Positions 18,589 through 54,185 of a stretch of 64,000 nucleotides of DNA are shown here, piece by piece. The DNA is from Allobosea sp. AAP35. Lineage in GTDB: Bacteria; Pseudomonadota; Alphaproteobacteria; Rhizobiales; Beijerinckiaceae. Made by a program: the position numbers and the translations under genes. Under the pieces are notes generated by a model. That model had not been told where the DNA came from, did no database searches, and worked only from the letters and a program-made list of their open reading frames with translations. The stretch covers positions 1 to 64,000 of the forward strand of contig NZ_LJHQ01000002.1 in assembly GCF_001295925.1 (NCBI RefSeq), given 5' to 3'. Each line of letters starts with the position of its first letter. Positions within the stretch are counted from its first letter, which is position 1.

Positions 18589-19226
18589 GCGAGCTTGCCG
18601 CCATCAGCGAGGAGCGCATCGCGGTCAAAGGACCCGACGGCAAGTTCCGCTGTCGCTGGCCGGGCACCGACCCGCTCTATCTCGCCTATCACGACACCGA
18701 ATGGGGCGTGCCGGAATACGATTCCCGCGCGCTCTGGGAGAAGCTGATCCTCGACGGGTTCCAGGCCGGCCTGTCCTGGATCACCATCCTGAGGAAGCGC
18801 GACGCCTTCCGCGCGGGCTTCGCCAATTTCGATCCGGAAGCGGTCGCACGCTTCACCGAGGCGGATGTCGCCCAACTGCTCGCCGACCCCGGCATCATCC
18901 GCCATCGCGGCAAGATCGAGGGCGCGATCAAGAGCGCACGCGCCTATCTCGCCATCAGCGAGCGCGAGCCTTTCGCCGATTTCCTCTGGAAGCGTCTCGA
19001 CGGACGCGTGCTGCAGAACCGCTTCCGCACGCAAGGCGAAGTGCCGACGCAGACCGCCCTCTCCGAGGCGATGGCGAAGGACCTGAAGAAGGCCGGCTTC
19101 ACCTTCTGCGGCCCGACCATCGTCTACGCCTTCATGGAGGCCTGCGGACTGGTCAACGACCACCTGACCGGCTGCTTCCGCTGGCAGGAATGCGCCGCGC
19201 TGGCGCGTGACGTGCGGCCGGCATGA
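18585..19226 (+). CDS. tag: DNA-3-methyladenine glycosylase I
   Basis: This 213-residue base-excision enzyme removes 3-methyladenine from alkylated DNA. The TAG family pattern is clear: DPLYLAYHDTEWGVPEYD, then ALWEKLILDGFQAGLSWITI, then the helix-hairpin-helix region. The zinc-snap ligands appear as FRC and AYHD near the N-terminus and DHLTGCF near the C-terminus. The start is the GTG inside the GTGA overlap with ygfZ. A family A palindromic repeat begins 11 bp after the stop. Confidence 0.94.
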   Translation: MSELAAISEERIAVKGPDGKFRCRWPGTDPLYLAYHDTEWGVPEYDSRALWEKLILDGFQAGLSWITILRKRDAFRAGFANFDPEAVARFTEADVAQLLADPGIIRHRGKIEGAIKSARAYLAISEREPFADFLWKRLDGRVLQNRFRTQGEVPTQTALSEAMAKDLKKAGFTFCGPTIVYAFMEACGLVNDHLTGCFRWQECAALARDVRPA

Positions 19227-19236
19227 ATCGCTCTGC

Positions 19237-19315
19237 CGTCATTGCGAGCGCAGCGAAGCAATCCAGGAGGGCTCGCTCGACGTCTCTGGATTGCTTCGCT
19301 GTGATCGCAATGACG
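19237..19315. repeat. intergenic palindromic repeat, family A, copy 1
   Basis: The outer arm reads CGTCATTGCGAGCGCAGC and continues GAAGCAATCCAG. The other arm is its near-perfect inverse, ending in GCAATGACG. It fits exactly between the tag stop and the start of the HD gene. Two other copies lie at 33594 and 54090. The arms translate as an ERSEAIQ-like peptide when read through, so a longer start for the HD gene is spurious. Confidence 0.85.
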
Positions 19316-19329
19316 AAAGCCGCCTGATC

Positions 19330-19932
19330 ATGGCTCGCGCTTCCGCCCCGCCCCGCGCCTGGCAGCGCATGCTGTCGGGCCGCCGGCTCGATCTGCTCGA
19401 CCCCTCCCCGCTCGATGTCGAGATCGAGGACATCGCCCATGGGCTTGCCCGCGTCGCGCGCTGGAACGGCCAGACGCAAGGGCCCCATTCCTTCTCGGTC
19501 GCGCAGCACAGCCTGCTGGTCGAGGCCATCGCCGACCACCTCAACCCCGGCTGGTCCGATCAATGGCGGCTGATGGCGCTGCTGCACGATGCGCCCGAAT
19601 ACGTGATCGGCGACATGATTTCGCCGTTCAAGGTGGTGATGGGCGACGCTTACAAGGCAGTCGAGACGCGGCTCCTGGGCGCGATTCATCTGCGCTTCGG
19701 GCTGCCGGCCGCAGCACCCGCCCCGCTCAAGCGCAAGACCAAGGAGGCCGATACCATCGCCGCCTTCCTGGAGGCGACGCAACTCGCCGGCTTCGCGCGC
19801 GACGAGGCGCTGCGCTATTTCGGCCGGCCGCAGCCGCTTCCGCGCGCGGTCACGGTCCTTCTGGAGCCGCTCGATACGCAAAGCGCGCAGGACCGCTTCC
19901 TCGAGCGCTTTGCCGCGCTCAACTCCGGCTGA
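19330..19932 (+). CDS. HD-domain phosphohydrolase (YfbR/5'-nucleotidase-like)
   Basis: The 200-residue cytosolic protein has the HD metal-binding pattern: FSVAQHSLLVEAIA supplies the first His, LLHDAPEYVIGDMISP the HD pair, and KEADTIAAFLEATQL the last Asp. YfbR-type enzymes dephosphorylate deoxynucleoside monophosphates, which fits the fold, but the substrate is unproven. The ATG at 19330 was chosen because the sequence before it belongs to the palindromic repeat. It is downstream of ygfZ-tag on the same strand and convergent with the VWA genes. Confidence 0.85.
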   Translation: MARASAPPRAWQRMLSGRRLDLLDPSPLDVEIEDIAHGLARVARWNGQTQGPHSFSVAQHSLLVEAIADHLNPGWSDQWRLMALLHDAPEYVIGDMISPFKVVMGDAYKAVETRLLGAIHLRFGLPAAAPAPLKRKTKEADTIAAFLEATQLAGFARDEALRYFGRPQPLPRAVTVLLEPLDTQSAQDRFLERFAALNSG

Positions 19933-19936
19933 AGCC

Positions 19937-21253
19937 CTACTGCGTCAGCCGGACCTGGCTGATCTCGCGGGCGATCTGCTTGAACACCGGCGTCAACTGG
20001 GAGGCATTGTCCACCTCGTAATATTGCCCGACGCTCGACGCGCAGTCCCTCAGGAGGTTGCGGTTTCCGTCCATGACCCGGATCGTATAGACGTTGATCC
20101 CGACGGCCTTGGCGTTGGCACAAGCGAGCTTGGTCCGCTCATCGACGCGCGGCTCGGTATTCGAGCCGTTGCCATCGAAGCGATTCCGAGTGTTGTCGCC
20201 ATCCGTCAGCAAGATCATGAACTTCTTCAGGCGAGGCGTGGTGACCGGCTTGGCCTCGGTGAAGGGTGCTCCCTGGCTCAGCGTTGCCATGCCCCAGACC
20301 GCGCCCATGGTGACGTTCGTGGAGCCGACCGGAGTCATCGCGTTGATGCGGTTGGTCAGGTCCGTCCAGTTGCTGGTCAGTGGCAGAATCCTGGCCTGCG
20401 TGTCGGGCGAATACTGGTCGCAGAAATCGGCCGGATAACCGGACGCATTCGAATTGCCGCCATCGCCATCCCGGACGTCGTAGGACTTGTCGCGATCGGC
20501 CACGCAGCCTTCCCAGATCGACTTGGAAATCATTTGCCGGGTGGTCGTGGGTCTGCAGACGCGAAACCAGTTTGCCCCTGTACAGGTCGTGATTGTCGTC
20601 AAGCGGCTCATGTCCCAGCGCAACCAGAGCTCGTTCTTTAGACTGGTGTCGATCAAAACCCGTGTCGAGAATGGCACGATCGAGATCTTGATCTGCTCGG
20701 GCTCGTCGCTCGCGTCCTTCATGATCTGGATGAGATCGAGCGAGGCAGCCTTCAGCGCATCCATTTTGCCGGAGGACGCCATCGACCCCGTATTGTCGAG
20801 CGCCAGTGCCAGCTCGATCGTGTTTGTGCCCCAGCTCGACTGGGACTTGCTGCTGACCGTGATCGAGTCCTTGCCGATCACGCGCGTCAGCGTCGTATCG
20901 ACATCGACCTGAGCCTGGACGCTGATGGTGCGCGCCGTGCGGTCGATCACGGAGGTGGCGCCCGTGAAGCGCTTGGCGCTGTCGCCATGCAGGTTCGCCG
21001 TGATCCATTCGTCGATCCGGCGGCGAAGCTCGGAATCCGTCAGCTTGCTGGCATCCCGCGCGGCCATCAGCGCGGCGGAGTCCAGAGCCGCGCTCAGCGT
21101 CTGACGGGCTGAGGTGGCGCGGCCGTAGTCGATCACCGCGCCGGCCACCCCGATGATGGGAACGAGCGCGAAGCCCATCATGACGAGGACGTTGCCACGC
21201 TCGTTGTCATGGAACGCGCGCAGGCGCCTGGCGAGCAAGCCCTTCAGGCCCAT
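19937..21253 (-). CDS. TadG-like pilus-assembly / von Willebrand factor A domain protein, paralogue 2
   Basis: This is a 438-residue exported protein. A TadE/G-type N-terminus (FHDNERGNVLVMMGFALVPI) gives a single membrane anchor. The VWA domain has its MIDAS motif LALDNTGSM, the later Thr region GSTNVTMGAVWG, and MILLTDGDNTRN. It has several paired cysteines and ends in QIAREISQVRLTQ. Proteins of this type are encoded with Flp/Tad pili or act as lone cell-surface metal-dependent binders. The start at 21253 begins the conserved MGLK stretch; its ribosome site is weak. It follows a paralogue 168 bp upstream with the same layout. Confidence 0.82.
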   Translation of the reverse strand: MGLKGLLARRLRAFHDNERGNVLVMMGFALVPIIGVAGAVIDYGRATSARQTLSAALDSAALMAARDASKLTDSELRRRIDEWITANLHGDSAKRFTGATSVIDRTARTISVQAQVDVDTTLTRVIGKDSITVSSKSQSSWGTNTIELALALDNTGSMASSGKMDALKAASLDLIQIMKDASDEPEQIKISIVPFSTRVLIDTSLKNELWLRWDMSRLTTITTCTGANWFRVCRPTTTRQMISKSIWEGCVADRDKSYDVRDGDGGNSNASGYPADFCDQYSPDTQARILPLTSNWTDLTNRINAMTPVGSTNVTMGAVWGMATLSQGAPFTEAKPVTTPRLKKFMILLTDGDNTRNRFDGNGSNTEPRVDERTKLACANAKAVGINVYTIRVMDGNRNLLRDCASSVGQYYEVDNASQLTPVFKQIAREISQVRLTQ

Positions 21254-21421
21254 CTGCAAAACTTTCGGTCGATGCTTGAGCGCCCATGAGCCACGCTGTG
21301 GCTTGCAGCCGGCTGAAAGCGATCGGTAAAATTGTCTGCAATCAGGCGATGGACGACGGCGCACCCGCCTCGACGCGACGCGAGACGAAGCGGGATTTCC
21401 GATGGGCGCAGCCGTCGCGAC

Positions 21422-22699
21422 CTACTGCGTCAGGCGCACCTGGCTGATCTCGCGGGCGATCTGCTGGAACACCGGAGTCAGCTGCGCGGCGCTGGTGACC
21501 TCGTAATACATGCTCGGGCTGCTGGCGCAGTTTTGCAGCAATGTCCGGTCACCATTGATCACGCGCACGGTATAGACCCTGATCCCCGCCGTCTTGGCCG
21601 TCTGGCAGGCCAGCTTCGTGCGATCGTCGATCTGGCCGCCATTGGTGGTGAAGCGGTTCTGCGTATTGTCGCCATCGGTGAGCAGGATCATGTATTTCGA
21701 CAGCCGTGGCGTCGGGAAGGGCTTTGCTCCGGAGAAGGGCACACCCGGCGTCAGCGTCGCCATGCCCCAGATCGCACCGATCGTGACGTTGGTGTTGCCC
21801 ACCGGCGTCATGCCGTTGATGGCGTTTTGCAGCACGGTCCAGTCCGCAGTCAGCGGCTGGATCGGCGCCAGCGTCGGTTGAGCGCAAAAATCGGCGGGGT
21901 AAAGCGTCGCATAGGCCAGGACCGACTCGTTGTCCTTGACGTCGTTCTGCTGATCACGGTCGCTGACGCAGCCAGTCCAGGTCGATTTGGTGATCGGGAT
22001 CGGTGTGCCGCAGGTCTTGTTTCCCCATTTATCCGTGGTGCAGTTCGGCTTGGTCTGGTCGAAGCGCAACCAGGGCTCGTCTTTCAGCGCCGTGTCGATC
22101 TTCACCTGGGTGGCGAAGGGAATGATCGAGATCTTGATCTGGTCGGCCTCCAACGCTGCGTCCTTCATGATCTGGATAAGGTTGAGCGAGGCGGCCTTCA
22201 GCGCCGCCATCTTGCCCGAGGACTTCATCGACCCCGTATTGTCGAGCGCCAGCGCGAGTTCGATGGTGTTCATGCCCCAGGTCGATTGCGCCTGGCTTTT
22301 GATCGTCACCGCGTCGGGGCCCAGAATCCGGGCCAGGCTGGTGTCGATGTCGAGCCGCGCCTCGATTGCGATGGTGCGCGCCGTGCGGTCGATCACGGTC
22401 GTGGCGCTGGTAAAGCCCTTGGCGCTGTCACCGCTCAGGTTTGCCTTGATCCATTTGTCGATCCGGCTGCGCAATTCGCTATCGGGCAGTTTGGCTGCAT
22501 CGCGCGCCGCCATCAGCGCCGCCGAATCGAGCGCCGCATTCAGCACCAGACGCGCCGATGTCGCGCGGGAGTAGTCGATGGTGGCGCCCGTCAGGCCGAT
22601 CACCGGCACGAGCGCGAACCCAAACAGCACCAAGACGTTGCCGCGTTCGTCGCCGCGAAAGGCGCGCAGCCGCATCTGCAGCCAGGACTTCAGACCCAT
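21422..22699 (-). CDS. TadG-like pilus-assembly / von Willebrand factor A domain protein, paralogue 1
   Basis: The 425-residue product is the tandem twin of the next gene. It has the same MGLK start, RGDERGNVLVLFGFALVPVI anchor, LALDNTGSM MIDAS motif, GNTNVTIGAIWG, MILLTDGDNTQN and the identical QIAREISQVRLTQ end. The two diverge most in the middle insert, which carries the CTTDKWGNKTCGTP cysteine loop here. AAGGAG lies about 8 nt before the ATG at 22699. No other tad/cpa pilus genes are in the window, so the export route and partners are unknown. It is probably anchored in the inner membrane with a periplasmic VWA domain. Confidence 0.85.
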   Translation of the reverse strand: MGLKSWLQMRLRAFRGDERGNVLVLFGFALVPVIGLTGATIDYSRATSARLVLNAALDSAALMAARDAAKLPDSELRSRIDKWIKANLSGDSAKGFTSATTVIDRTARTIAIEARLDIDTSLARILGPDAVTIKSQAQSTWGMNTIELALALDNTGSMKSSGKMAALKAASLNLIQIMKDAALEADQIKISIIPFATQVKIDTALKDEPWLRFDQTKPNCTTDKWGNKTCGTPIPITKSTWTGCVSDRDQQNDVKDNESVLAYATLYPADFCAQPTLAPIQPLTADWTVLQNAINGMTPVGNTNVTIGAIWGMATLTPGVPFSGAKPFPTPRLSKYMILLTDGDNTQNRFTTNGGQIDDRTKLACQTAKTAGIRVYTVRVINGDRTLLQNCASSPSMYYEVTSAAQLTPVFQQIAREISQVRLTQ

Positions 22700-22985
22700 G
22701 CCGGCACTCCTTGATGGCTATCCCCAGGTTAAGAGGAGACAGCGGCGCGCCTTACGCAGGGCTGAAAACCATCTTTTCAATTGTATCCAATGCCTTGATT
22801 TCCTGCTCTCAACTGCGATTTCAGATCGACTACTTGGCAGCCGAGCCGCAACGGAGAAGAGCCAACCACGCCAATATTTTCCGAAACGGCATAAGTGAAC
22901 ACGCTTTTTCGCCTATTTCGAGGAGCCGGCATCTGCGTCATAACGGATGGCCCGCAAGCCGACGCCGCCCGCTCAGGAGACCCTC

Positions 22986-24605
22986 ATGTCGCAGCCATCC
23001 CCGTCGCCGCAAACCCTCGCCCTGCCAAAAGGCGTCGTCGTCAAGGGCGCGCTCGCCGCCCGCTACGACGAGGTTCTGAGCCATGACGCGCTCGCCTTCG
23101 TCGCCGAGCTGCACCGCCGCTTCAACGAGACGCGGCTGCGCCTGCTCAGCCTGCGCACCGAGCGCCAGAAGCGCTTCGACGCAGGCGAGACGCCCGATTT
23201 CCTGGCCGAGACCCGCCACATCCGCGAGGGCGACTGGACGGTGGCGCCGATCCCCGCCGATCTGCAGGACCGCCGCGTCGAGATCACCGGCCCGGTCGAC
23301 CGCAAGATGATCGTCAATGCGCTGAACTGCGGCGCAAAGGTCTTCATGGCCGATTTCGAGGACGCCTCCTCACCGCTCTGGACCAACATGATCGAGGGCC
23401 AGCTCAACCTGAAAGACCGCTGGGCCAACGCGATCGACTTCACCGACGCCAACACCGGCAAGGCCTATGCGCTCAAGCCCAACCCCGCCGTGCTGATCAT
23501 CCGCCCGCGCGGCTGGCATCTGCCGGAGCGCCATATCGAGATCGACGGCGAGATCGCCTCGGGCTCGCTGGTCGATTTCGGGCTCTACCTCTTTCACAAC
23601 GCCAAGGCGGCGCTCGCGGCCGGCTCGGGCCCCTATTTCTACCTGCCCAAGCTCGAAAGCCATCTCGAGGCGAGGCTCTGGAACGACGTCTTCGTCGCGG
23701 CGCAGAATGCGCTCGGCCTGAAGACTGGCACGATCAAGGCCACCGTCCTGATCGAGACGCTGCCCGCTGCCTTCGAGATGGACGAGATCCTCTACGAACT
23801 GCGCGACCACATGGCCGGGCTGAACTGCGGCCGCTGGGACTACATCTTCTCCTTCATCAAGAAGCTCGCCCGCAACCCGGCCTTCGTCCTGCCCGACCGC
23901 TCGCAGGTCGTGATGACCAAGGCCTTCCTGAACGCCTATTCGCTGCTGCTGATCAAGACCTGCCACCGCCGCGGCGCCTTTGCCATGGGCGGCATGGCGG
24001 CGCAGATCCCGGTCAAGAACAACCCGGAGGCCAATGCGGCGGCCTTCGCCAAGGTCCAGGCCGACAAGGAGCGCGAGGCCGGCAACGGCCATGACGGCAC
24101 CTGGGTCGCCCATCCCGACCTCGTCCCCGTCGCCATGGAGGTCTTCGACCGGCTGATGCCGCAGGCCAACCAGCTCGACAAGAAGCGCGAGGACGTCAAC
24201 GTCACCGCGAAGGACCTGTTGGAGGTCCATCAGGGCACACGCACGGAGGCAGGCTTCCGCGAGAACATCCGCGTCGGCGTGCAGTATCTCGAAGCCTGGC
24301 TGCGCGGCCGCGGCGCAGTGCCGATCTACAACATGATGGAGGACGCCGCGACGGCCGAGATCAGCCGTGCCCAGATCTGGCAGTTCGTCAGCTACGGCGT
24401 CGAGGTTGACGGCAAGACCAAGGTCACCCCCGAGCTGTTCAAGCGCTGCCTCGCGGAGGAGATGGAGCGCGTGAAAAGCGAGGTCGGCGCTGAGTCCTAT
24501 GAGAAGGGTCGCTTCCCGGAAGCGATCGAACTGTTCTCGAAACTCTCGCTGGCGCCGCAGTTCGAGGAGTTCTTGACCGTTCCGGCTTATGGGAAGCTTG
24601 GCTGA
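22986..24605 (+). CDS. aceB: malate synthase A
   Basis: This 539-residue glyoxylate-bypass enzyme condenses glyoxylate with acetyl-CoA to give malate. Family features include KVFMADFEDASSPLW, IIRPRGWHLPE, the catalytic-barrel segment ATVLIETLPAAFEMDEILYE, LNCGRWDYIFSFIKK, FAMGGMAAQIP and GTWVAHPDLVP. Length matches E. coli AceB (533) rather than the larger GlcB type. The ATG at 22986 has CAGGAG 7 nt upstream; an ATG at 22947 does not. Isocitrate lyase is not adjacent, so the bypass partner is encoded elsewhere. Confidence 0.95.
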   Translation: MSQPSPSPQTLALPKGVVVKGALAARYDEVLSHDALAFVAELHRRFNETRLRLLSLRTERQKRFDAGETPDFLAETRHIREGDWTVAPIPADLQDRRVEITGPVDRKMIVNALNCGAKVFMADFEDASSPLWTNMIEGQLNLKDRWANAIDFTDANTGKAYALKPNPAVLIIRPRGWHLPERHIEIDGEIASGSLVDFGLYLFHNAKAALAAGSGPYFYLPKLESHLEARLWNDVFVAAQNALGLKTGTIKATVLIETLPAAFEMDEILYELRDHMAGLNCGRWDYIFSFIKKLARNPAFVLPDRSQVVMTKAFLNAYSLLLIKTCHRRGAFAMGGMAAQIPVKNNPEANAAAFAKVQADKEREAGNGHDGTWVAHPDLVPVAMEVFDRLMPQANQLDKKREDVNVTAKDLLEVHQGTRTEAGFRENIRVGVQYLEAWLRGRGAVPIYNMMEDAATAEISRAQIWQFVSYGVEVDGKTKVTPELFKRCLAEEMERVKSEVGAESYEKGRFPEAIELFSKLSLAPQFEEFLTVPAYGKLG

Positions 24606-33593: not shown

Positions 33594-33671
33594 CGTCATT
33601 GCGAGCGCAGCGAAGCAATCCAGGGTGCGCCGCGCGAGACGCTGGATCGCTTCGCTGCGCTCGCGATGACG
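33594..33671. repeat. intergenic palindromic repeat, family A, copy 2
   Basis: Arms CGTCATTGCGAGCGCAGC and GCTCGCGATGACG enclose a short variable centre. The element lies between the convergent fghA and idnO-like genes and may act as a bidirectional hairpin terminator. Confidence 0.85.
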
Positions 33672-53850: not shown

Positions 53851-54185
53851 GAGGGGACTCCGGGGCGTTCGGTGCGGTGCGAGTCGCGTTTCGCGGACGG
53901 CGTTGAAAGGACAAGGCTGCGATGCAGATCGGCCTGCATCCATGGTCTTCATCAATGAAGCGTCAACCTAAACGAGACCTTGCCAGAACAAGGCGAAGTG
54001 GCGGCATTGCGGCGTATAGTTAATCAAACACTGCAAGAGGCCGCTTTCGCCGCATTGTGGCGCTTTTGCACCGCTTTAGCAGTCCCTATCGTCATCGCGA
54101 GCGCGGCGAAGCCATCCAGGCGAACGTCGAGCGAGACATTCCGGATTGCTTCGCTGCGCTCGCAATGACGGAGAGGTGAACTTCC
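53851..54185. other. 335-bp gap between tolB and pal
   Basis: This gap holds the pal ribosome site, an AT-richer patch around 53965-54085 that could carry a separate pal promoter, and the family A repeat at 54090-54170. I see no gene in it. Confidence 0.45.
54090..54170. repeat. intergenic palindromic repeat, family A, copy 3
   Basis: Arms CGTCATCGCGAGCGCGGC and GCTGCGCTCGCAATGACG enclose a variable centre. It sits 15 bp downstream of the tolB stop within the tol-pal cluster. Confidence 0.85.

Follow-up and report, generated by a model that had tools for sequence, protein, structure and literature searches.

A tandem pair of TadG-like VWA proteins encoded apart from the Tad pilus genes in Allobosea sp. 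AAP35, with conflicting histories for the two halves of the extra copy

The closest described counterpart of the proteins considered here is CpaL of Caulobacter, a vWA minor pilin that is proposed to occupy the tip of the Tad pilus and whose gene is an orphan outside the pilus cluster (PMC12607857). In the portions of that report drawn on here, CpaL consists of a pilin-like module and a vWA domain that bears a MIDAS and is split by an intervening beta-rich region. Deletion of cpaL alters piliation and surface sensing; the tip position is a prediction, and a role of the VWA head in adhesion or surface sensing is proposed and not settled (PMC12607857). An orphan TadG is also found in Bradyrhizobium diazoefficiens, where tadGEF lies away from the main Tad clusters (PMC10934763, PMC12918737), and the excerpts of these papers used here describe tadG/tadGEF mutants of Bradyrhizobium with impaired root adhesion (PMC12918737, PMC10934763). 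The Kil pilus of Myxococcus, according to the part of the report consulted, provides a case of alternative tips for one Tad-like pilus (PMC12075869).

Two neighboring genes of this kind, named A and B, are present in the genome of Allobosea sp. AAP35 (4.46 Mb, 83 contigs). They lie within the window, by which we mean the whole stretch of 64,000 nucleotides analyzed, positions 1 to 64,000 of contig NZ_LJHQ01000002.1 in assembly GCF_001295925.1. The features are as follows.

21422 to 22699, minus strand: gene B, 425 amino acids, with a Tad/TadG-like pilin module and a split VWA domain.
22091 to 22699, minus strand: B residues 1–203, comprising the N-terminal helix, the pilin-like module and the first VWA segment, with the MIDAS motif DNTGS.
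21851 to 22090, minus strand: B residues 204–283, the cysteine-bearing insert that splits the VWA domain.
21254 to 21421, minus strand: the gap of 168 bases between the stop of B and the start of A.
19937 to 21253, minus strand: gene A, the extra tandem copy, 438 amino acids from the ATG at 21253.
20645 to 21253, minus strand: A residues 1–203, the half that groups with B.
20378 to 20644, minus strand: the A insert, residues 204–292, 48% identical to the B insert.
19937 to 20650, minus strand: the C-terminal half of A (insert and second VWA segment), which clusters with a different branch of the genus.
19207 to 19932, plus strand: an HD-domain gene that flanks the pair, assigned by Pfam and in conserved synteny.
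22947 to 24605, plus strand: a malate synthase gene that flanks the pair on the other side, assigned by Pfam and in conserved synteny.

The open reading frame of A spans 19937–21364 and opens with a GTG codon at 21364; the start was placed at the ATG at 21253 on the basis of homology to B. The two proteins are 64% identical over 439 aligned positions. Both match the Tad family PF13400 (41.2 bits for A and 36.7 bits for B, Pfam cut-off 22.3) and the VWA family PF00092 (33.7 and 40.4 bits, cut-off 23.8), which confirms that the two minus-strand reading frames are tandem TadG-like VWA paralogues, as the original prediction held. The MIDAS motifs, also predicted for both copies, are intact: none of the five positions numbered in B as D153, T155, S157, T303 and D342 varies among the 45 homologues that were aligned. 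In the sequence, MIDAS residues 153–157 and 303/342 lie on either side of the insert at 204–283, and the VWA domain is read as split on this basis. An AlphaFold model built from a three-row alignment was of low confidence (mean pLDDT 52.5, pTM 0.41) and placed a long helix before a set of strands. A profile search of the PDB with a three-sequence profile at E 0.01 matched no chain. A promoter scan of 19900–23000 returned no sigma-70-like match, and one terminator-like site was found in the scan against a mean of 2.2 in shuffled sequence.

As far as the available text of the CpaL report allows a comparison, A and B resemble CpaL in their pilin-like N terminus, split VWA domain, MIDAS and location outside the main pilus cluster (PMC12607857). 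They differ in forming a tandem pair with further copies in the genome. The insert measures 57–106 residues across 45 homologues of the A/B family, whereas residues 204–384 are given for the intervening region of CpaL, which is compared here by its published description. The tadG gene of Bradyrhizobium diazoefficiens, judging from the excerpts, is likewise removed from the main Tad clusters, and the order is probably common to both (Rhizobiales). There it is grouped with tadE and tadF, whereas A and B lie between metabolic genes and the TadE matches of the genome are on another contig. The Myxococcus Kil tip complexes, in the part of the report consulted, comprise several alternative minor-pilin tips with variable exposed domains, as is proposed below for A and B; unlike A and B, these are different proteins encoded in gene clusters, and the predation associated with them is not suggested for A and B.

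The pair had been predicted to stand without a pilus locus. Locally this holds, as a Pfam scan of six other open reading frames of the window revealed no tad/cpa gene, but it fails for the genome as a whole. Pfam matches on contig 15 include a Flp pilin, a prepilin peptidase, RcpC/CpaB, a secretin, CpaD, T2SSE/CpaF (its single match genome-wide) and two T2SSF proteins; the assignment of a Tad machine is based on Pfam for these named components. Both TadE genes are also on contig 15, ∼7 kb from the rest of the Tad genes. PF13400 itself has seven matches genome-wide, none of them on contig 15, and A and B are the only two on the contig of the window. Four of the seven carry a Pfam VWA domain (A, B, a copy on contig 32 and a copy near 361 kb on contig 23). 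The other three match Tad only, at E 0.01, with no Pfam VWA match; these Tad genes are at L021 7194–9842 (contig 23) and L022 10289–11674 (contig 33), and two of the three are in tandem.

The separation of A and B from the Tad machine, on a different contig, could be taken to indicate periplasmic or surface VWA binders that act without any pilus, and the NCBIfam search, in which both proteins gave only weak matches far under the cut-off, is compatible with such a role. We regard this as quite improbable. The pilin-like N terminus exceeds the Pfam cut-off for Tad in both proteins, an orphan location is documented for cpaL in the text available to us (PMC12607857), and TadE occurs in all 67 genomes examined in the genus, with PF13400 in 66 of them. 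Assignment of A and B as orphan CpaL/TadG-type minor pilins of the Tad pilus tip, with A a mosaic, is the reading we consider probable.

The two genes differ in their standing at the locus. Gene order was compared over 13 loci, eight from relatives (seven regions and L017) and five stretches of the same genome. All eight relatives share the order dihydroorotase, YgfZ, TagI, HD gene, a single VWA gene and malate synthase, where the first two names are our own labels rather than Pfam assignments. The syntenic VWA gene is 76%–79% identical to B in seven of these relatives and 65% identical in G132. A wider survey covered 47 loci, 43 from other genomes and four from the same genome. One VWA gene lies between the HD gene and malate synthase in 22 of the 22 other genus loci that had both flanks in reach; malate synthase alone was present in four further loci and the HD gene alone in two, and the remainder showed neither flank, either because little sequence had been retrieved around the copy or because the copy was located elsewhere. 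Among the matches listed for 66 other genomes of the genus, the best match of A was 69% identical (G239) and no close adjacent VWA pair occurred. From this synteny, and with no close counterpart of A among those matches, B is taken to be the conserved gene of the locus and A the extra one. Of the two copies, only B behaves as a conserved single VWA gene at a set position.

Second genes of a more distant kind are found at some of the surveyed loci. Between its VWA gene and malate synthase, L017 has an extra, distant Tad gene in which Pfam recognizes no VWA domain, and at the malate synthase locus of four other genomes (L065–L068) the VWA gene is likewise accompanied by a second, distant Tad gene. 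On contig 13 of G163 (L094) the VWA homologue is in two pieces in different frames, and may thus be broken or mis-assembled. Outside the genus, contig 81 of G074 bears two adjacent homologues with ∼40% identity, and contig 35 of G289 and contig 165 of G356 each have three neighboring matches to the C-terminal half of A (32%–36%). Since adjacent homologues recur in other genera of the family, from which two samples of 199 and 397 genomes were taken, tandem arrays are not unique to the genome of Allobosea sp. AAP35. A separate feature of the window is a palindromic repeat, CATTGCGAGCGCAGCGAAGCAATCC, which occurs with inverse copies at 19240–19312, 33597–33668 and 54143–54167; five matches were counted when up to three mismatches were allowed, and none is expected by chance. 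The reading frame of the HD gene (from 19207) runs through one of these copies, which indicates that the true start of that gene is probably further downstream.

The inserts are the most divergent part of the pair, as predicted. Identity between A and B is 48% in the insert (B 204–283) and 57%–83% in the other nine segments compared. Every one of the 45 homologues has cysteines 244, 365 and 391, and C272 is present in 44 (one gap), whereas C220 (26 of 45) and C230 (24 of 45) vary. The column entropy over the 45 homologues is highest in the insert (1.52), followed by the pilin part (1.24) and the VWA parts (0.81 and 0.94). Among B and seven orthologues the ranking differs: the insert (0.47) falls below the pilin part (0.56), with the VWA parts at 0.34 and 0.28. 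A duplicated VWA protein whose frame is conserved and whose insert varies is upheld as a description of the pair, and the diversifying selection that had been proposed for it is not supported. The analyst chose 15 pairs, a small number that overlap and are partly saturated, and in all of them each segment gave a pairwise dN/dS below 1; the insert was the segment with the highest ratio in only five. These ratios speak against strong pervasive diversifying selection and not against selection at single sites. Selection of the insert by, for example, host surfaces or phages would account for its greater length and entropy relative to the VWA segments over the 45 homologues, and for a dN of 0.50 and dN/dS of 0.54 between the inserts of A and B; in view of the ratios in all 15 pairs, we consider it very unlikely.

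The identical ends noted in the original prediction are a C-terminal tail of 13 residues, QIAREISQVRLTQ, which is the same in both proteins. The underlying codons show silent differences at V and R. Other members of the family also keep the tail, an example being QQIAREISQIRLTM in the dispersed contig 32 copy. These two observations identify it as a family signature rather than a trace of recent copying, and recent gene conversion of the tail is accordingly rejected.

The main result concerns the two halves of A. Comparisons were made on nested sets of homologues. A set of 51 rows left out three (the two L094 pieces and one from L021), the 45-row alignment also omitted L020, the second gene of L017 and the second genes of L065–L068 (six rows), and the 31-row set left out a further fourteen (L025, L026, L027, L070, L071, L086, L087, L091, L092, L093, L095, L096, L097 and L098). 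B and its seven closest orthologues are referred to as B8. With the halves divided at B residue 203, a boundary of the analyst's choice, A and B resemble each other over residues 1–203 to the same degree as B and its orthologues do (difference 0.009, interval −0.049 to 0.066). Over residues 204–425, A and B are further apart than B and its orthologues (difference −0.206, interval −0.264 to −0.149), and A is nearer to the group of G202, G239, G242 and G252 (the G202 group) than to B (−0.086, interval −0.148 to −0.023). For residues 284–425 alone, the identities of A to B and of A to the G202 group are not separated (interval −0.144 to 0.009). Diagnostic sites, under thresholds that were also the analyst's choice, follow the same division: A matches the branch of B at seven sites to two in the first part (six neither) and the other branch at seven to one in the second (one neither).

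Phylogenetic trees reproduce this conflict. In a tree of the flanking HD and malate synthase proteins, the window falls inside a clade of nine genomes (100). In the careful 31-row tree of the N-terminal half, A and B are sisters (98/94) within a group of ten rows, made up of the nine clade genomes and A (98/93). In the corresponding tree of the C-terminal half, A groups with G210, G211, G249 and the G202 group (97/95), with B8 apart from A (99/97). Quick trees from 45 rows agree, with values of 93 (A with B) and 99 for the N-terminal half and 92 and 97 for the C-terminal half. At full length, A is outside the clade of B in the 31-row tree (100/99); a quick 51-row tree that included the very long row L020, since superseded, grouped A instead with the genus's other branch (93). 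The VWA gene of G132 (L085 6571–7872) follows its clade in its flanks and N-terminal half, and its C-terminal half is long and poorly placed: it forms a long branch (0.81) outside the group of B in the 31-row tree and lies beside B8 without support on 45 rows, and its diagnostic sites favor the branch of B by five to three.

AU tests on 31 rows, whose p values are optimistic since the rows and the tested groups were picked after the 45-row trees, rejected placement of the N-terminal half of A with its C-terminal group (p 0.0019). They also rejected B8 without A (p 0.037) and did not reject B8 and G132 without A (p 0.085). For the C-terminal half, A with B (p 5.8e-8), A with B8 (p 0.0105) and A with B8 and G132 (p 0.0108) were all rejected. 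On 45 rows, the N-terminal half again rejected A with the other branch (p 0.0018) and the C-terminal half rejected A with B (p 0.0047); for the N-terminal half, B8 without A (p 0.0975) and B8 and G132 without A (p 0.114) were not rejected, nor for the C-terminal half were A with B8 (p 0.334) and A with B8 and G132 (p 0.185). A PHI-type test of A, B8 and the G202 group gave 0.001 in three of three settings, and 0.021, 0.57 and 0.009 once A was removed; low values were also obtained in sets without A, such as main10 (p 0.001). A silent-site scan gave a marginal result for A and B (p 0.046) and comparable results for two pairs of B orthologues (p 0.023 and 0.034). A scan along the protein had a flat stretch at B residues 120–240, within which a breakpoint would be expected. 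A test for exchange between the two copies thus yields a positive signal, which becomes weaker or conflicting on 45 rows.

The non-rejections on 45 rows allow A as a sister to the group of B in either half, and the full-length tree of those rows unites A, B8 and G132 (97). Both would be expected if A had been duplicated in tandem from B long ago, ahead of the radiation of the nine-genome clade, and lost elsewhere, the conflict between the half trees then being due to uneven rates and not to recombination. Such a history would require loss from the eight other genomes of the clade. It is also opposed by the C-terminal half on 31 rows (p about 0.011), by the rejection of B8 without A in the N-terminal half (p 0.037) and by the closer identity of the C-terminal half of A to G252 (up to 74%) than to B (61%), and we judge it unlikely, although less so than the alternatives discussed above. 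Comparison of the sequences favors a mosaic gene A, short of proof. In a limited search of the literature, confined to titles and the openings of abstracts, half-swapping in TadG/CpaL proteins was not found described.

By analogy with CpaL, the N-terminal pilin-like part would enable A and B to undergo processing and to take up a place at the tip of the Tad (Flp) pilus, which would be assembled by the machine encoded on the other contig. The VWA domain with its MIDAS, together with the variable insert, may then be exposed as a binding or force-sensing head. B would be the inherited gene of the locus and A an additional variant of the tip. The pilin half of A may be shared with B through duplication or gene conversion, and its insert and VWA half may derive from a different allele of the family, so that the same docking part would be combined with a different binding part. 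Export, processing, location at the tip, binding and expression of A are what we infer from the architecture and the literature. Tentatively, and with less confidence than the assignment of the proteins themselves, the process may be a general one, in which the genus keeps the docking half and swaps the insert and VWA half by homologous recombination at a fixed site. One Tad machine would thereby be equipped with different heads, and the tandem pair would be a snapshot of one such swap, with the old and new heads side by side.

For the most part, A and B belong to a type of protein already known, and their genomic setting also has documented precedents; it is the conflicting histories of the two halves of the extra copy that merit follow-up. 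The locus illustrates that a local absence of tad genes does not imply an absence of pili. If the mosaic reading is correct, these genes would constitute a set of naturally occurring tip variants that share equivalent docking parts, with which it could be asked whether the VWA head sets adhesion or surface sensing.
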